A DNA stretch of 64,000 nt, taken from positions 124,001-188,000 of the forward strand of contig NZ_JAJQRG010000003.1 of the NCBI RefSeq assembly GCF_021228235.1, given 5' to 3'. The notes beneath the pieces are model-generated. The model ran no database searches, was not told the origin of the DNA, and was given only the letters and a program-made list of their open reading frames with translations. The DNA is from Pseudophaeobacter flagellatus. GTDB taxonomy: Bacteria > Pseudomonadota > Alphaproteobacteria > Rhodobacterales > Rhodobacteraceae. The first letter of the stretch is position 1; every line of letters begins with the position of its first letter. This document shows positions 17,833 to 29,001 of the stretch, one piece after another. Position numbers and translations under genes: made by a program.

Positions 17833-19236
17833 ATGGAACCAATTGAAATTGGCCTTTGGGTCACCAGCTTTTTGCTTGTGCTGGTTGTTGTTGGCATGCG
17901 GGTTGCCTTTGCCGCCGGTCTGGCGGGCCTGGTCGGGCTTATCTGGATCTTCTGGGCCAAATTCGGCTACAGCCCGGATAAATTTGGCAAGGCGCTGACC
18001 GTGTCGGTCAAGATTGCCGGGCAGGTGCCGCATTCCAAGGTTTCCAGCCAGGCGCTGAGCCTGATTCCCACCTTCATCCTGATCGGCTATCTGGCCTATT
18101 ATGCGGGCCTCACGCGGGCGCTGTTTGAAGCGGCCAAACGCTGGATCGCCTGGCTGCCGGGCGGGCTTGCGGTATCGACCGTTTTTGCCACTGCCGGTTT
18201 TGCAGCGGTGTCGGGGGCGTCGGTTGCGACCTCGGCGGTCTTTGCACGGATCGCCATCCCGGAAATGCTGGCGATTGGCTATAATAAACGATTTGCAGCG
18301 GGGGTTGTGGCAGCAGCCGGGACCCTGGCTTCGCTGATCCCGCCTTCGGCGATTCTGGTGATCTATGCCATTATCGTTGAACAGGACGTGGGCAAGCTGC
18401 TGCTGGCTGGCTTTATTCCCGGCGCCTTCAGCGCAGTGGTCTATGTGCTGCTGATTGTTGGCATTGCGATGGTCTTTAAGAATGTCGGCCCGCCCGTCAC
18501 TGGTTTCACCTGGCGTCAGCGTTTTGAAGCGCTGCCCGGGGCGCTGCCGATTGTCTTTGTTGTCGTGATCATCATCTGCTTTGTCTACAACCCCTTTGGC
18601 GGCGATGCCTGGGGCACCCCAACCGAGGGCGGCGCACTGGGGGCTTTTGTGGTCTTTTGCATGGCGCTCTGGCGCGGCATGCGCTGGGGGGAGTTCAAAT
18701 CGGCGCTGCTGGAGACGGCCAAGCTTACCGTGATGATCTTTACCATCATTTGGGGCGTGCTGATCTATGTGCGCTTTCTGGGCTTTGCCGATCTGCCGGG
18801 GGCCTTCTCTGACTGGATTACCAGCCTTGAGATGTCGCCTATGGTGATCCTGATCTGCATCCTGCTGGCCTATGCCGTGCTGGGGATGTTCATGGATGCC
18901 ATTGGCATGCTGTTGCTGACCCTGCCGGTGGTCTACCCGGCGGTGATGGCGTTGAATGGCGGCGAGAGCGTGGCGGCAGCAGACAGCGCCTTTGGCATGT
19001 CAGGGCCGATGTGTGCGATCTGGTTTGGCATTCTGGTGGTGAAAATGGCCGAGTTCTGCCTGATTACGCCGCCGATTGGTCTCAACTGTTTTGTTGTGGC
19101 CGGGGTGCGCGATGATCTGAGCGTGCAAGACGTATTCCGCGGCGTGATGCCCTTCTTTATCGCCGATGGCGTGACGATTGCGCTTCTGGTGGCCTTCCCC
19201 GCCATCGTGCTCTACCTGCCGAGCCTGGCACAGTAG
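17833..19236 (+). CDS. dctM: TRAP transporter large permease subunit
   Basis: The 467-residue DctM-type protein has about 12 membrane helices. Landmarks include the SGASVATSAVFARIAIPEM stretch, AGTLASLIPPSAILVIYAI and LGMFMDAIGMLLLTLPVVYP. It forms the ion-coupled channel with the DctQ subunit directly upstream. The gene closes the operon and a strong hairpin follows. Confidence 0.92.
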   Translation: MEPIEIGLWVTSFLLVLVVVGMRVAFAAGLAGLVGLIWIFWAKFGYSPDKFGKALTVSVKIAGQVPHSKVSSQALSLIPTFILIGYLAYYAGLTRALFEAAKRWIAWLPGGLAVSTVFATAGFAAVSGASVATSAVFARIAIPEMLAIGYNKRFAAGVVAAAGTLASLIPPSAILVIYAIIVEQDVGKLLLAGFIPGAFSAVVYVLLIVGIAMVFKNVGPPVTGFTWRQRFEALPGALPIVFVVVIIICFVYNPFGGDAWGTPTEGGALGAFVVFCMALWRGMRWGEFKSALLETAKLTVMIFTIIWGVLIYVRFLGFADLPGAFSDWITSLEMSPMVILICILLAYAVLGMFMDAIGMLLLTLPVVYPAVMALNGGESVAAADSAFGMSGPMCAIWFGILVVKMAEFCLITPPIGLNCFVVAGVRDDLSVQDVFRGVMPFFIADGVTIALLVAFPAIVLYLPSLAQ

Positions 19237-19620: not shown

Positions 19621-19695
19621 TGGCTCCGGCGGTAGGGATCGAACCTACGACCAATTGATTAACAGTCAACTGCTCTACCGCTGAGCTACGCCGGA
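19621..19695 (-). tRNA. tRNA-Asn (anticodon GUU)
   Basis: On the minus strand the 75 bases fold as a complete tRNA: acceptor TCCGGCG with CGCCGGA, D-arm GCTCAGCGGTAGAGC, anticodon loop CTGTTAA with GTT (plus-strand 19661-19663), and T-loop GGTTCGATCC. The 3' CCA is encoded. I see no integration duplicate of its 3' end in the window. Confidence 0.97.
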
Positions 19696-20910: not shown

Positions 20911-21438
20911 TCAGTGCACCGTGACCACCGTGCAATCGGCCTGCTGACTGATTTTCTGCGACACGCTGCCTTGGAAAATGCGTTTTATCGGGCCCAGTCC
21001 TCGGTGGCCAATCACGATCATGTCTGCGCCGACCTCTTTGGCCATGCTGAGAATGCCTTCATCGTCACTGCCGTTCACCACACGGGTTGAGACGGTCTTG
21101 GCACCCAACTCTTTGGCACGGCTGGCAGCGCGGGCTGCGATTTCGTCACCGATCACAGAGATAACTCTCTCGCGGTCTGCTCCGGAGAGATCACCCGAGA
21201 ACAGGGCATCCATGTTGGACGGGATGTCCCCCAGATGAATAGGTTTCTGCGATTTGACATGGTGCACCAAGTGCTCAACCTCGGCCATGCGGCTCAATTC
21301 GTCTACCTGGGCACCATGCTGCAATACGTGACCGACAGTCAGCGGAACAGCGAGTTTGGCGGCAAGCTCGGCTGCCAGACTTACCGCCCGATCCGCCGTT
21401 TTCGAGCCGTCCGTTGCGACGAGGATACTGGAAATCAT
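20911..21438 (-). CDS. Universal stress protein (UspA family)
   Basis: The 175-residue single-domain protein begins MISSILVATDGSKTADRAV and ends with VIGHRGLGPIKRIFQGSVSQ, the G-x2-G-x9-GS ATP-binding signature of UspFG-type proteins. It is about 30 residues longer than typical because of an insertion around residues 55-95. The ATG at 21438 has an AAGGGAGAGGGAG leader; the longer frame to 21498 lacks support. It is convergent with the NYN gene. Confidence 0.9.
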   Translation of the reverse strand: MISSILVATDGSKTADRAVSLAAELAAKLAVPLTVGHVLQHGAQVDELSRMAEVEHLVHHVKSQKPIHLGDIPSNMDALFSGDLSGADRERVISVIGDEIAARAASRAKELGAKTVSTRVVNGSDDEGILSMAKEVGADMIVIGHRGLGPIKRIFQGSVSQKISQQADCTVVTVH

Positions 21439-23955: not shown

Positions 23956-24216
23956 CGCTACCAGTCCAGTGGTGCTGGCGCAGCGCAGACAGCCCCAGCA
24001 CACGCGGCTCGACTCCCCCTGAAAATTCCCGGAGCCACAGAAAAATCACGGCAAACCCTGCTGCTCTATGCTTAGCGTATATAGACTAATGCGTTGAAAA
24101 TTATGTAAAAAGTGGTGCGTTCAAGTGTGGCACCGATGATGGTTTCGTGTGGCTGATCGTACCATTCTGATTTTGTGTTATTTTTGGGTCGTGCGCTCAA
24201 CTTGCCATTGGTCTCC
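23956..24216. other. Non-coding stretch before the dusA-repeat block
   Basis: About 260 bp, AT-richer toward 24060-24180. On the minus strand a 55-codon frame (24239 to 24072) starts inside the repeat block and runs out through here. It is probably the broken continuation of a divergent gene start, not a functional gene. Confidence 0.4.
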
Positions 24217-24592
24217 AGGCGTTTTGCGATCGCTCCCATAGGAGCTGCATTCAGTCACGGGGGGGCATGGCCGACCATCTGATCCTTCGGTTTTTCGCAA
24301 ACGAGCTTGGTTGGGCTTGACGCCAAACCGGCGGGACGGGCTGAATGGGGGAAAACCGATGGAGTAGGGGCGCGGCCCGGTAGTGCTCGAATGGGGTGCT
24401 GGAACTTGGTGCAAAAAAAGTGCTACACGGCGCCGTCGGTGCTGCATTCTGTAGCACTGCACTCAAAAACGGGGCTAAATCGGGCCGAAACGAGGAAAAC
24501 GCGCAAAATGGCGAAACCAGAAAATCGAGAAAAAACAGGATTTTCCGATGTTCGGCGCGCTGCCCGCCTCTCCATTGCACCCATGATGGATG
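24217..24592 (+). repeat. Left copy (A) of the dusA-region direct repeat
   Basis: About 376 bp aligned by eye with 27663-28044. It contains the first codons of a divergent minus-strand frame, the full intergenic region, and dusA codons 1-28. Similarity is highest over 24418-24592 (for example GTGCTACACGGCGCCGTCGG is identical in both), lower further upstream. Similarity ends right after the codon for Asp28 of the MMD motif. Confidence 0.9.
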
Positions 24593-24609
24593 GGGTGGTG
24601 CGCTTCTGA
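24508..24609 (+). pseudogene. dusA 5' remnant (33 codons)
   Basis: The frame starts MAKPENREKTGFSDVRR and continues ARLSIAPMMD, matching the N-terminus of the intact dusA at 27961 with a few substitutions. It then leaves homology and stops after GVVRF. It lacks the catalytic domain and cannot be functional. It marks the left junction of the inserted segment. Confidence 0.88.
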
Positions 24610-24727
24610 AAGCGCTTATTTTATTCCGGTTCCGTAATTCAGTTTCCATATCATGATTCACGCTTGAGCGTCGCAAGAAATACCATGCAATTTTGTGGCC
24701 GATGTCAAAAGCACAGGCAAATTGTGG

Positions 24728-24740
24728 GTTGGTGACCAAC
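24728..24740. promoter_or_regulatory. Small palindrome before the histidine-kinase gene
   Basis: GTTGGT-G-ACCAAC is a perfect inverted repeat 22 bases upstream of the kinase start. It could be a regulator site or a leader hairpin; no consensus was recognised. Confidence 0.35.
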
Positions 24741-24762
24741 GCTTAAATGGTAGCTTGCCGAT

Positions 24763-26301
24763 ATGAGCTTTATAGATCCAAACGCCAAGAGCCGAAGCGC
24801 CCGGCGCCGCAGCATGATCGGGTGGCTGGCGGCTGTGGCTGCGGGTGTCCTTACCTTGGCGGCGGTTCAGCGCAATATCCAATTCAACGAACTGGAGAAG
24901 GAAAGCGCTGAACTTCACCGGCTGGCTTCGCTTCGGGCCGGTCAGCATGACGCCCATCTTACGGCTTTGTCAGCCATTGCCGTTGCCAGCGCAGGGCTGC
25001 GGCCGGATCTTTTTCTTGATGTTGCGGCCACAATCTCGCGGTTCTATCCACGTATCGACGAGGTGCAACTGGTGCCGCTTGATCTTTCGGGCGGGGCTGT
25101 TGGCTCTGAACCTTTGCCCCCGGATACCGAGGCAATGATCCGTGCCACGGCGGGACGGTCTACCGGGTTGCCAGAGATTTTGGCTCACCCGTCGCGCAAA
25201 GAGCATTATCTTCTGGTCAAGCGCAGTCCAAATTCCAGCGACGCAATCTACGCCCTTGCTCTTGGAATTGATGCGACACAGCTGGTAGGGAGTGACGCTG
25301 AATTCTGGTCAAAAGACTCCGTCCATGCGCGGCTTTCTTTGCCTGAGGGGGCCGGTCTTGGTTCCGCAGTCGAGGAAACCCCTGCACAATTTGCGAAGCC
25401 ACTTGAAAGCATGTCCCAGCCGCTTTTGCTGGAAACCTCCCGGCAGACCCGGTTGGCGGATTTGCTTCCGCCCACGCAGGTTGCGGTTGTCATTCTGTTG
25501 GTCAGCCTGATCTATTATTCTGCGCGCGCCCTTGTTTTGCAGCGGGTTCGGGTGCGCACCGCCGAGCACGAGGCCGAAATGCGGCGGATGGAAGCGCAAT
25601 TGACCCATGCCGCGCGGGTGAATGCGATGGGTGAAATGGCCAGCGGTATGGCTCATGAACTCACCCAGCCCCTGACAGCCATCCTGGCCCAGGCGCAGGC
25701 CGGGCGGCGGTTGTTGGCGCGTGGGGATTCGGAGGCCGTTGATCGGGCTCTTGCCGACATCGGTTCGCAAGCCAAGCGCGCTTCGGCGATCCTTGAGCGA
25801 TTGCGCAATTGGTCGCGTCCCCAGCGGGGGCCAGTCGAGCAGAAGGATTTGCGCATAGCCATGAGGAACGTAGAGGCGCTTCTTGGCTCCGAAGCTGAAA
25901 AGCGGGGGGGCTTGCTGCATTTTGATGTGCCGGGGTGCGCAGTCGAGGTCCTGGCCGATCAGGTCGAAATGGAACAGGTTCTGCACAACCTCATCAGAAA
26001 TGCGTTCGAGGCGCTCGAGGGGCAGGCGGGTGGTGTAGTCAATGTTGTTGCATCGGTCACCTTGGGCAATGTCATTCTGGAAGTCGTCGACAACGGCCCC
26101 GGAATTGATGAAGCCCTGCGGCCAGGTCTGTTCACCCCGTTCATGACGACGCGGGAGAATGGTACGGGCCTCGGGCTGGCGCTTTGCCAAAGGCTGGTCG
26201 AACGTGCCGGTGGAGAGATTTCCTATCAGGAGACCGCCATCGGTGCCAAATTCCGTATTGTTCTGCCGTTGAGCGGACAACCAAGGGAGGCGGCGCAATG
26301 A
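24763..26301 (+). CDS. Membrane sensor histidine kinase
   Basis: The 512-residue kinase has two membrane helices (about 17-36 and 239-258) flanking a periplasmic sensor of about 200 residues. A coiled coil and dimerisation domain follow with phosphoacceptor His298 (MAHELTQPLTAI, FixL/DctB-like HPK4 pattern), then the HATPase with N box (Asn409/Asn413), G1 DNGPGI (443-448) and G2 GTGLGLA (467-473). It overlaps the response-regulator gene by ATGA at 26298-26301. A secreted HbpS-like protein follows, making a periplasmic sensing trio. It lies inside the segment flanked by dusA repeats. Confidence 0.92.
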   Translation: MSFIDPNAKSRSARRRSMIGWLAAVAAGVLTLAAVQRNIQFNELEKESAELHRLASLRAGQHDAHLTALSAIAVASAGLRPDLFLDVAATISRFYPRIDEVQLVPLDLSGGAVGSEPLPPDTEAMIRATAGRSTGLPEILAHPSRKEHYLLVKRSPNSSDAIYALALGIDATQLVGSDAEFWSKDSVHARLSLPEGAGLGSAVEETPAQFAKPLESMSQPLLLETSRQTRLADLLPPTQVAVVILLVSLIYYSARALVLQRVRVRTAEHEAEMRRMEAQLTHAARVNAMGEMASGMAHELTQPLTAILAQAQAGRRLLARGDSEAVDRALADIGSQAKRASAILERLRNWSRPQRGPVEQKDLRIAMRNVEALLGSEAEKRGGLLHFDVPGCAVEVLADQVEMEQVLHNLIRNAFEALEGQAGGVVNVVASVTLGNVILEVVDNGPGIDEALRPGLFTPFMTTRENGTGLGLALCQRLVERAGGEISYQETAIGAKFRIVLPLSGQPREAAQ

Positions 26302-26906
26302 GCCATCCCGTCTACTTGGTTGATGATGACGAAGCCGTTCGGTGCGCCCTGAGACTGCTGCTTTCGACGGTTGATATTGATGTCATCACCTTTTCCGATC
26401 CGCAGTCTTTTCTGGCGCAGCTTGGCGGACTTGCTCCGGGATGCCTGATCCTCGATATCCGAATGCCCCTGATTTCCGGTCTAAAGCTTCAAGAGAAATT
26501 GGCGGAAAAAGGAGTGGACTGGCCCACCGTCATCATTTCCGGGCATGGCGATATCGAGGCCTGCAGACGTGCGTTTCGCAATGGCGCCGTGGACTTCCTG
26601 TCAAAACCGGTGGACGAACAAGACCTGATCGACGCAATCCAGAAAGGCAGTGACGCCCTGGAAATGCAGTTGCGGGCCGATCTGGAGCAAGCCGAGGCCC
26701 GCAATCTTCTTGCGACGCTGACGGTGCGGGAGAGCGAAGTGCTGGACCGGATCGCCCAAGGGTTTACCACCAAGCAGATCGCCGAAGGGCTTGGGCTGTC
26801 GCCGCGGACCGTTGAAAGCCACCGTGCTGCAATCGGGGCCAAGCTGGGCACCACCTCGCAGGCGGAAATGACAAGGGCGTGGATCGAAGGGGGCGTTTCT
26901 CCGTAG
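26298..26906 (+). CDS. FixJ/NarL-type response regulator
   Basis: The 202-residue protein has a receiver domain with Asp10/Asp11, phosphoacceptor Asp53 (LILDIRMP) and Lys103 (LSKPVD), and a LuxR-type HTH (about 138-196; LTVRESEVLDRIAQG, LGLSPRTVESHRA). The frame opens at 26184, but the ATG at 26298 overlaps the kinase stop and follows AGGGAGG. Its partner is the upstream kinase. A perfect 20 bp palindrome at its own stop codon, before the hbpS-like gene, is a candidate binding site. Confidence 0.93.
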   Translation: MSHPVYLVDDDEAVRCALRLLLSTVDIDVITFSDPQSFLAQLGGLAPGCLILDIRMPLISGLKLQEKLAEKGVDWPTVIISGHGDIEACRRAFRNGAVDFLSKPVDEQDLIDAIQKGSDALEMQLRADLEQAEARNLLATLTVRESEVLDRIAQGFTTKQIAEGLGLSPRTVESHRAAIGAKLGTTSQAEMTRAWIEGGVSP

Positions 26907-26917
26907 AACTACGGAGA
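26898..26917. promoter_or_regulatory. 20 bp perfect palindrome ahead of the HbpS-like gene
   Basis: TCTCCGTAG-AA-CTACGGAGA spans the response-regulator stop codon, 76 bases before the HbpS-like start. A further CCTACG half-site lies at about 26928-26934. Symmetry and position suit a NarL/FixJ-type regulator operator; an mRNA hairpin is the alternative. Confidence 0.5.
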
Positions 26918-26992
26918 GGGCGGGGAACCCTACGAATTTTGCGGGTCCGTTTTGGATCTTAAACAGTCTTCATCAATCATGAGGAGACAAAC

Positions 26993-27475
26993 ATGATCCG
27001 CAAACTGACCCTTGCTGCTGCTTTTCTGGCTCCAGTTTCCGTTGCTGCCCAAGAGCTGCCGACCGCGCCTTATCTGCCGCTTGAACTGGCCACCCAGGCC
27101 GCCCAGACTGCCCTCGCGGCCTGTGCCGCTGATGGTTACAAAATCAGCGTTGCCATTGTTGCCCGGGATGGCGCGACCAAGGTGCATCTGAAGGCCGACA
27201 ATTCCGGCCCCCACACTGTGGGCAGCGCCCAGGGTAAAGCGTTTACTTCGGCCTCAATGGGGCGTGACACTGCAGGTTTGGCCAGTTTTATTGGCGAGAA
27301 CCCGCAGCATGATGGCCTGCGCTATATGGACAGCCGTATCGTCATCCAGGGCGGTGGTCTGCCCATCAAGATCGGTGGCGCGCTGGTTGGCGGCATCGGG
27401 GTAGGTGGCGCTCCTGGCGGCCACCTTGACGAAGCCTGCGCACGCGCCGGGCTGGATGCAATCGGCGCCGAATGA
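26993..27475 (+). CDS. Secreted HbpS/GlcG-like heme-binding family protein (DUF336)
   Basis: The 160-residue protein has a signal peptide ending VSVAAQ (about residue 20). The mature DUF336 domain shows AAQTALAACAADGYKISVAIVARDGATKV at its start and GGGLPIKIGGALVGGIGVGGAPGGHLDEACA near its end. In Streptomyces, HbpS of this family is secreted and modulates the SenS/SenR two-component system in response to heme and redox stress. Here it directly follows a kinase/regulator pair, a parallel arrangement. The start has a GAGGAG box. Heme binding itself is not evident from sequence. Confidence 0.88.
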   Translation: MIRKLTLAAAFLAPVSVAAQELPTAPYLPLELATQAAQTALAACAADGYKISVAIVARDGATKVHLKADNSGPHTVGSAQGKAFTSASMGRDTAGLASFIGENPQHDGLRYMDSRIVIQGGGLPIKIGGALVGGIGVGGAPGGHLDEACARAGLDAIGAE

Positions 27476-27480
27476 TCGGA

Positions 27481-27512
27481 GAGCAGCCTGCCGCTCTGGT
27501 AGCAGGCTGCTC
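27481..27512 (+). terminator. Stem-loop after the HbpS-like gene
   Basis: GAGCAGCCTGC pairs perfectly with GCAGGCTGCTC (11 bp) around a 10-base loop. No T-run follows, so it may be an attenuator or mRNA end-protecting hairpin before the truncated downstream gene. Confidence 0.5.
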
Positions 27513-27532
27513 TTAGGACAGAGAGGTCTGAT

Positions 27533-27662
27533 ATGATGAAATGTGTTCTGGCTCTGCTCCTGAGCGTCTTTTCAGCTTCGGCGCAGGCGCAGACTGCTCC
27601 CTCAGGGGCCGAGATCGCCAGCTATCGGGGATTGCATCGCACCGCCCATACTGGAGATCTTG
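27533..27662 (+). pseudogene. Ankyrin-like secreted protein, 5' fragment truncated at the repeat
   Basis: The fragment encodes a signal peptide (MMKCVLALLLSVFSASAQAQ) and a mature start TAPSGAEIASYRGLHRTAHTGDLEAF that resembles the entry into an ankyrin-repeat protein. Homology is lost exactly where the right dusA repeat begins (27663). The frame then runs on by chance to a stop at 27730. A complete ankyrin domain would need some 100-200 further residues. The family assignment rests on a short stretch. Confidence 0.65.
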
Positions 27663-28044
27663 AGGCGTTCTGTGATAGTTCCCATGGGAGTTCCTTTCAG
27701 TCACGGGTTTTCCATGGCCGGGACATCTGATCGTTCGGTTTTTTCGGAAGCGGGTTTGATTGGGGTTGAATCCCAAACCGGGGGCGATTGGGCTGAATGG
27801 GGGAAAACCAATGGGGTAGGATTGTTGCCCGGCAGCGCATAATTTGGAGTGCTGGAACTCAGGCGGAAAAAAGTGCTACACGGCGCCGTCGGTGCTACAT
27901 TCTGTAGCACTGCACTCAAAAACGGGGCTAAATCGAGCCGAAACGGGGATAACGCACAAAATGGCGAATCCAAATAATCAAGAAAAATCAGGATTTTCCG
28001 ACGTGCGGCGGGCTGCACGCCTATCCATTGCGCCCATGATGGAT
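27663..28044 (+). repeat. Right copy (B) of the dusA-region direct repeat
   Basis: About 382 bp homologous to 24217-24592, ending at codon 28 of the intact dusA. Both copies include a minus-strand start (ATG at 27685 here, 24239 in copy A) with similar first codons, MGTITERL here and MGAIAKRL in A. This implies that the duplicated unit spans the divergent intergenic region of dusA. Confidence 0.9.
27873..27910. promoter_or_regulatory. Three GTGCTACA half-sites upstream of dusA
   Basis: GTGCTACA occurs at 27873-27880 and 27892-27899 (19 bp repeat spacing) and inverted as TGTAGCAC at 27903-27910. The last two form a palindrome with a 3-base centre. An ACGGCGCCGT palindrome lies between the first two. 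Copy A keeps two sites, while the middle one is changed to GTGCTGCA. Probably a promoter operator; regulator unknown. Confidence 0.5.
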
Positions 28045-29001
28045 TGGACCGACCGCCATTGTCGGTATCTGCATCGTTTGCTCAGTCAGGAGGCGCTGCT
28101 TTATACTGAAATGGTGACCGCGCCTGCTCTGGTACGTGGTGGGGCGCTGCATTTGCTGGATCACAGCCCCGAAGAACACCCGGTTGCGTTGCAGCTTGGC
28201 GGCTCGGAGCCGGCAGAACTGGCGCGGGCGGCAGAGCTTGGCGGCGCGGCGGGCTATGATGAGATCAACCTCAATTGCGGCTGCCCCAGTGATCGGGTGC
28301 AGTCCGGCGCCTTTGGGGCAATCCTGATGCAAAGCCCGGATCTGGTCGCCGAGGCGGTTGCGGCCATGCGCGCCAAGGTTGGCGTGGAGGTCACGGTTAA
28401 ATGCCGCATCGGTGTCGATACACAAGAGCCGCGCGAAATTCTGCCGACGTTTCTGGAGAAGATCCGCGCAGCTGGCTGCCAGCGGGTCACCATCCATGCC
28501 CGCAAGGCCTGGCTGAAAGGGCTGTCGCCAAAGGAAAATCGCGATGTGCCGCCGCTGGACTATGATTTGGTGCACGCGATGAAGGCGGCTTTTCCGGATC
28601 TGCATATTTCGCTGAATGGCGGTATTGATACGCTAGACAGTGCGTTGGAACATCTTGAGCGGGGGCTGGACGGGGTCATGGTTGGCCGCGCGGCCTACCA
28701 TCAGCCGACAGATATCCTGGCGGCGGCGGATGTGCGGATCTTTGGCACTGGCGCGGTGCGGGATCCTTTTGATGTGGTAATGCAGATGCTGCCCTATATC
28801 GAGAGCCAGATGGCGCAGGGCGCCCGGCTGCACCAGATCACCCGGCATATGCTTGGCCTGTTTGCAGGCCGCCCTGGTGCGCGGGCCTGGCGCCGTGTCT
28901 TGTCCGAAGGGGCCAGCCGTCCGAGTGCGGGCCCTGATCTGGTGCTACAGGCGCTGTCACAGGTGCAGCAGGTGCCTCAGCCGGTGTTTTCCGCCAGCTA
29001 A
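27961..29001 (+). CDS. dusA: tRNA-dihydrouridine synthase A
   Basis: The 346-residue flavoenzyme reduces uridines in the tRNA D-loop. It begins with the DusA-type APMMDWTDRHCR motif (24-35) and has NCGCPSDRV with catalytic Cys108, plus HARKAWLKGLSPKENR and NGGI typical of DusA. The frame opens at 27844, but the ATG at 27961 is preceded by GGGGATAAC and yields the usual length; the longer start would translate the operator-like repeats. Its first 28 codons are duplicated at 24508. The 5' region of dusA is a known insertion target of integrative elements. Confidence 0.95.
   Translation: MANPNNQEKSGFSDVRRAARLSIAPMMDWTDRHCRYLHRLLSQEALLYTEMVTAPALVRGGALHLLDHSPEEHPVALQLGGSEPAELARAAELGGAAGYDEINLNCGCPSDRVQSGAFGAILMQSPDLVAEAVAAMRAKVGVEVTVKCRIGVDTQEPREILPTFLEKIRAAGCQRVTIHARKAWLKGLSPKENRDVPPLDYDLVHAMKAAFPDLHISLNGGIDTLDSALEHLERGLDGVMVGRAAYHQPTDILAAADVRIFGTGAVRDPFDVVMQMLPYIESQMAQGARLHQITRHMLGLFAGRPGARAWRRVLSEGASRPSAGPDLVLQALSQVQQVPQPVFSAS

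Follow-up and report, generated by a model that had tools for sequence, protein, structure and literature searches.

The 5' end of dusA in Pseudophaeobacter flagellatus very probably holds, judging from sequence comparison, what is left of dusA-specific islands that inserted at one and the same attachment site on two occasions and then decayed. The window considered here is the whole stretch of 64,000 nt that was analysed (NZ_JAJQRG010000003.1, positions 124,001-188,000; assembly GCF_021228235.1), taken from a genome of 4.29 Mb (G000). Within it, two diverged direct repeats of the dusA 5' region, the left and the right block, flank a cassette that encodes a histidine kinase, a response regulator and an HbpS-like protein. 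Islands of this kind carry DAI integrases; they are reported to span 4.8 to 185 kb, and the DAI integrase gene is the only gene shared by all 94 of those described (Farrugia 2015, PMC4482086). The same study reports that the islands replace the start of dusA, and accretion is considered by its authors. The event is thus of a known type with an unusually readable layered history, and the cargo module, not the repeat, is its most novel part.

The repeated blocks

The left block (24217-24594, + strand) and the right block (27663-28047, +) are separated by 3.07 kb and align at 82% identity (E 1.4e-101), with a longest exact run of 38 bp. The alignment scores 359 bits, compared with at most 24.7 bits for the left block against 464 pieces drawn at random from the window, and a chance repeat is therefore rejected. 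When the left block is used to search its own 4.29-Mb genome (E 0.001), the two blocks are the only matches. These results bear out the sequence-only reading, which had proposed two diverged direct repeats of about 380 bp. It had also described the left copy as a dusA remnant, and this copy indeed ends after 33 codons and a stop (24508-24609, +), while only the right copy runs into an intact dusA (27961-29001, +), whose product exceeds the cut-offs of two DusA models in NCBIfam.

Each block contains, in order over 24217-24590 and 27663-28043 respectively, the start of a DAI-type integrase gene read away from dusA, an intergenic region, the dusA promoter region, dusA codons 1-28, and a core, CCxATGATGGA. 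The most conserved part contains an inverted repeat, GTGCTACA...TGTAGCAC, which lies in the dusA promoter region at 24420-24457 and 27873-27910, within a stretch of 59/60 identical bases. This inverted repeat is also recognisable in two congeners (G002 and G007); in its own genome it occurs, allowing up to 3 mismatches, at these two sites only. An Rfam scan of 24000-28200 gives a single match, InvR, at 22 bits (gathering score 60; E 0.55), which is taken as chance.

The integrase stubs

A divergent frame had been noticed at the left end of both blocks. The frame exists, but its identity had been missed: it is the stub of an integrase gene, with its ATG at 24239 in the left block and at 27685 in the right block, both on the minus strand. 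Stub 1 (24195-24239, -) retains about 15 codons (MGAIAKRLETNGK...), and stub 2 (27663-27685, -) about 8 (MGTITERL). Without the DAI identification, the repeat would pass for an odd promoter duplication.

The identification comes from comparison with a genus sample of 12 genomes (G000-G011), from which ten congener dusA loci were fetched (G001-G010; the G010 locus includes only ~0.5 kb upstream before the contig ends), and with a family sample of 295 genomes, searched with the integrase fragment of G006. In G005, a single copy of the 5' region precedes an intact dusA, and a long minus-strand frame, RGTITERLKTNGKSSFTAQIRKK..., extends from the same place as the stubs, with AGG in the position of the usual ATG. 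This frame is 56% identical over 251 residues to a 384-aa integrase from the family genome G020, which matches Pfam Phage_integrase and PHROG integrase families. Using tblastn, DAI remnants are found near or upstream of dusA in five of the ten congener loci (G003, G005, G006, G009 and G010). The G006 fragment matches 72 of the 295 family genomes, the weaker matches being other tyrosine recombinases. In all 12 family loci that were fetched, the integrase gene adjoins dusA and diverges from it; six of these loci were chosen with the position of dusA already known, and six were high-scoring matches chosen without such knowledge. In the literature found on DAI in roseobacters, the word dusA is absent from the matches listed.

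The attachment core and the empty sites

The inner end of the left block and the corresponding end of the right block form an attachment repeat pair. The putative attL of the younger island lies at 24577-24594 (+), with the core CCCATGATGGA at 24580-24590, and the putative attR at 28030-28047 (+). The same core is present in the family genomes G108, G020 and G136, and at one end in the congener G004. Alignments of the left block with G001, G002, G003, G005, G007 and the right block all end at 24590 or 24594. The one exception is G004, where a different insert begins at this base: its alignment extends as far as 24625, into what would be the island arm beside attL (24591-24719). The first ~35 bases of this arm resemble the arm of the G004 insert, and agreement between the arms of G004 and G020 extends farther (TGGTGCCGAGGGA). 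G008 and G009 have no match to the left block, and the only matches in G006 and G010 are to the stretch farther upstream at 24107-24145.

The far end of an island was sought in seven family loci (G108, G020, G136, G024, G018, G031 and G296). G108 has a clear second core, with 32/36 bases identical, 36.9 kb away. Second cores are also assigned in G020 (23/36 bases, 15.3 kb away) and G136 (24/36, 23.1 kb away). All three island pairs and the pair in the window have ATGATGGA in common and diverge after it. In G024, no second core was found within 60 kb; in G018, G031 and G296 the search was limited by contig ends.

The G004 insert (G004:C119, ~0.7-6 kb) carries Septu-type PtuA/PtuB defence genes, and since this insert occupies the same dusA core, different cargoes are found at one site within the genus. 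The PtuA-like gene of G004 is split over two frames, and its dusA is known only as the first codons. The 15.3-kb island of G020 has two PrtN/RdfN-like frames (named by eye) beside attL, and its cargo consists of large unidentified proteins.

A match to the start and body of dusA is present in 11 of the 12 genus genomes; two 5' matches occur in G000 only, and the match of G004 breaks off at the core. In nine congeners, an intact dusA is preceded by a single 5' region, and the cassette is absent. These are the empty sites that had been proposed as a check on the integration of a circle carrying the dusA 5' region, and together with the break of the alignments at the core and the recurrence of this core at the two ends of intact islands in the family, they give such an integration good support. 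G011, a 93% complete draft, is alone among the 11 congeners in having no DusA match. Regulator and HbpS genes are found near dusA in none of the ten fetched congener loci; G001 has an unrelated kinase (26%) there. Cassette matches occur in five of the 12 genus genomes, including G000, and outside G000 none is at dusA: G003 and G009 have partial matches (68-77%) on other contigs, and G007 and G011 have matches of 41-42 bases. A wider view comes from a scan with five kinases, from which the best 80 of at least 173 related loci were kept with flanks of up to 6 kb per side; neither dusA nor DAI is present in these flanks. The arrangement that would have spoken against insertion, the same cassette between dusA copies at syntenic loci, thus did not occur near the best 80 kinase loci.

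The final structure would be the same if a circle had entered by homologous recombination in the common dusA 5' region rather than through an integrase, which might already have been lost; the blocks now share enough sequence for RecA, given their 38-bp run. Such a circle, with attP beside a dusA 5' region, would itself be a DAI island, for which the known route is site-specific integration (PMC4482086), and the identity between the blocks shows no obvious switch along their length. We consider this route quite unlikely.

A mosaic dusA

The two blocks differ in their relatives as well as in their sequence. The left block is 82-84% identical to the right block, G005 and G004, whereas the right block, G005 and G004 are 92-93% identical to one another. 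The intact dusA appears chimeric, with codons 1-28 derived from an island and the remainder native: the right block is identical to G005 at 354/381 positions, compared with 745/949 for the dusA body (Fisher p 2.8e-11; 727/913 without gaps). Third codon positions in the dusA body are 57% identical to those of G005; across 27663-27962, divided into five 60-base bins, identity is 90-98%. In six congeners (G001, G003, G006, G008, G009 and G010), DNA homology to G000 starts only at about dusA codon 17-24. This agrees with a dusA start that has been replaced repeatedly, an effect reported for such islands (PMC4482086).

The other origin put forward by the sequence-only reading, an unequal duplication, is not supported by this comparison, since the blocks are 17% apart and the right block is 92-93% like G004 and G005. 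An unequal duplication of the dusA promoter region, followed by capture of the kinase operon, would leave an operon flanked by two direct repeats, as observed. However, the left copy breaks off at a core that also serves other islands as attachment site, the copies differ in age and relatives, and an integrase start is present in both; in addition, the arm shared with G004 and a third dusA-start fragment (below) would be left unexplained. A duplication is therefore regarded as highly improbable.

An older fragment at the same site

Upstream of the left block lies a third fragment of a dusA start (24107-24145, +). It reads VRSSVAPMM-VSCG-stop: the core is at its end and an in-frame stop follows four codons on, as in other attL remnants. 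The fragment is 82% identical over 39 bases to the dusA starts of G006 and G108, and 83% over 36 bases to that of G010; it scores 40.1 bits, compared with 28.3 for the best control. These features suggest that it is probably the attL, at the far end, of an older island of which almost nothing is left. The ~50 bases between the fragment and integrase stub 1 (24146-24194) would then be what is left of that island's interior, and the left block would represent both the right end of the older island and the attB side of the younger. A further dusA-like match at 21402-21432, with 29.2 bits, is on a par with the best control (28.3) and was dropped.

The locus could also be explained by a single insertion, in which the left block is the host's own dusA start and received its integrase stub through an exchange in the promoter region, for example by gene conversion with an island. 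The brevity of the third fragment, and the mere ~50 bases between it and the integrase stub, favour this explanation. It has to contend with the core at the end of the fragment, the in-frame stop found in other attL remnants, and the score of 40.1 versus 28.3 bits, and also with the left block itself, in which every element between the integrase start and the core is present and in order. A single insertion is accordingly judged unlikely, and an older island is likely, though not proven.

Several observations weigh against two island insertions at dusA. The matches of the third fragment extend over only 36-39 bases, at 82-83% identity. Codons 1-28 of dusA are identical to those of G005 at only 72/83 positions, and the likeness of the right block to G005 may come partly from constraint on the intergenic region. 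DAI remnants near dusA were not found with tblastn in G001, G002, G004 or G008, nor in G000 at the same threshold, and G007 has only a 26-residue match (E 0.001) far from dusA. An attL was found in just three of the seven islands examined, and the counts for G020 and G136 are at or barely above noise, these sites having been recognised by the frame LSVAPMMD of a dusA start together with ATGATGGA. A pattern search for the core returns 14 sites where 10.6 are expected, no excess over chance. Finally, neither an intact integrase nor an RdfN/PrtN-like gene was recognised in the cassette.

Proposed history and mobility

If two islands were involved, the first would have entered the dusA start that is now seen at 24107-24145 and supplied the left block to dusA, and would then have shrunk to ~50 bases and a 15-codon integrase stub. 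Because an integrase start is present in the left block too, dusA would already have been island-rebuilt before the younger island entered. The younger island would have recombined at the core of the rebuilt dusA, leaving the left block behind as a pseudo-start of 33 codons and bringing in the right block and with it the present start of dusA. Finally, a deletion would have joined ankyrin codon 44 to integrase codon 8, removing the remainder of both genes and anything between them. The outcome would be an immobile kinase-regulator-HbpS operon.

It had been suggested that recombination between the repeats could excise the cassette and restore dusA. Excision by the element's own enzyme is not expected, since the younger integrase is an 8-codon stub and no intact DAI was found in the genome. 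With a single G006 query, the genome yields only overlapping partial matches at C26:190408-190929, one of them with a stop. Beside dusA in the window, only the first 8 and 15 codons of DAI integrases are left, which makes the locus a remnant and not a functional island. A RecA-mediated exchange over the 38 identical bases could possibly remove the cassette and leave dusA in frame.

Thus, in a single lineage, the start of one core tRNA-modification gene would have been replaced more than once by islands, and island cargo can outlive the genes for mobility. The locus also points to a conserved and directly testable kinase-regulator-HbpS module in proteobacteria.

The cargo operon

As the sequence-only reading had it, the genes for the kinase, the regulator and the HbpS-like protein lie between the blocks, and all three frames are open. 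The histidine kinase gene (24763-26301, +) encodes two membrane helices, a periplasmic dCache-like domain, HisKA and HATPase_c; it is followed by a gene for a FixJ-like response regulator with REC and GerE domains (26298-26906, +) and one for an HbpS-like protein with a signal peptide (26993-27475, +). An ankyrin-repeat gene (27533-27662, +) retains its first 43-44 codons, with the frame running on to 27730. Its truncation, also claimed earlier, is apparent from comparison with the intact operon of Tritonibacter aquimaris, with which homology covers 24720-27663, its last position being the first base of the right block; at this junction, 27663, ankyrin codon 44 is joined to integrase codon 8. 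Among the best 80 kinase loci, T. aquimaris is the closest relative of the cargo (70% identity for the kinase, 87% for the regulator and 91% for HbpS).

The regulator gene lies behind the kinase gene in 80/80 of these loci, an HbpS gene is present in 79/80 and an ankyrin gene in 37/80; alpha-, beta- and gammaproteobacteria are represented among the record titles. Past these four genes, no further conserved operon neighbour is found among the real gene clusters of the best 80; the other neighbour clusters were set aside as coming from few related genomes or as reverse-strand overlaps. The kinase also occurs in 23 plasmid records (E 1e-40). Of seven plasmid regions opened, that of Ensifer adhaerens is unannotated, and in five of the other six HbpS lies behind the regulator. 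The exception is the plasmid of Leisingera thetidis, in which kinase and regulator, without HbpS, are near genes for quinohemoprotein amine dehydrogenase. G003 and G009 have a distant version of the cargo (kinase 47%) on other contigs, and the G003 stretch that carries it shares 12,809 bp at 100% identity with Roseobacter sp. MED193. A phage link of the cargo is limited to one unannotated record, MT837918.1, at 50% identity. From this distribution, the cargo is taken to be a travelling kinase-regulator-HbpS module.

The predicted proteins suggest what the module may do. Hydropathy of the kinase gives two strong hydrophobic stretches that flank a 200-residue domain, and a third window that is inside the ATPase domain. 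A structure search with the whole kinase was filled by kinase cores, and the sensor domain was therefore predicted separately. The resulting model (mean pLDDT 89.2) is of dCache type, its best match being 3lif_B (Z 14.6, rmsd 3.3 over 196 residues). For the HbpS-like protein, the best PDB matches are the extracellular haem-binding proteins 4bmw and 3fpv, Streptomyces HbpS among them; its signal peptide was named by eye and was not flagged by a hydropathy scan with a 19-residue window. A second HbpS-like gene is present in the same genome outside the window (G000:C1:221018-221410). With NCBIfam, the kinase scores best with TtrS/FixL and the regulator with FixJ/TtrR, all below the cut-offs. By analogy, the exported HbpS may sense haem, iron or redox stress and set the activity of the kinase, which would phosphorylate the FixJ-like regulator; we give this proposed function about an even chance.

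The upstream neighbourhood

Farther upstream, the window contains a TRAP transporter large-permease gene region (18157-19236, +) and a tRNA-Asn gene (19621-19695, -). The TRAP gene is within ~12 kb of dusA in G002, G003, G004, G005, G007 and G008, and elsewhere or farther away in G001, G006, G009 and G010. Between 20138 and 23955, upstream of the oldest dusA fragment, lie variable genes (NYN/LOTUS, USP, YaeQ, ABM, NIPSNAP and an ArsR-like HTH), of which the USP gene was named by eye. Their matches in congeners lie away from dusA. These genes were considered as cargo of the older island and rejected, as they lie outside the fragment at 24107-24145.

Comparison with known systems

The locus resembles the dusA islands with DAI integrases (PMC4482086) in its site at the 5' end of dusA, in the new dusA start brought by the island, in the remnant of an integrase gene next to dusA, and in the att repeats at both ends. 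It is unlike them in being a 3.07-kb remnant with only an integrase stub, and in having a second, older scar at the site. In contrast to the IMEVchUSA3-type dusA elements of Vibrio (PMC8409611), the locus has no recognised transfer genes or RdfN-like directionality factor.

The cargo is like the HbpS-SenS-SenR system of Streptomyces (PMC4991794, PMC3184428, PMC8153426) in that an exported HbpS is encoded together with a membrane kinase and a DNA-binding regulator, and the predicted extracytoplasmic sensor domain of the kinase is consistent with HbpS binding as in that system. The gene order differs, being kinase-regulator-HbpS(-ankyrin) here and hbpS-senS-senR in Streptomyces (PMC4991794). The same source states that only actinobacterial hbpS-like genes cluster with senS and senR. 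In the literature searched, mostly at the level of listings, no proteobacterial HbpS two-component cluster was recognised. Among the NCBIfam models, those of TtrS/FixL and FixJ/TtrR score best, below their cut-offs. The likeness to FixL/FixJ and TtrS/TtrR extends to these best-scoring models; the differences are the scores below the curated cut-offs, the periplasmic dCache-like sensor domain and the added HbpS. Whether the kinase, regulator and HbpS, with an optional ankyrin protein, constitute a widespread proteobacterial three-component sensor, put together independently of actinobacterial HbpS-SenS-SenR and moved on plasmids and islands, is in our judgement evenly balanced. If so, the locus would represent a three-component sensor that has outlived its carrier island, at a site already scarred by an older one.

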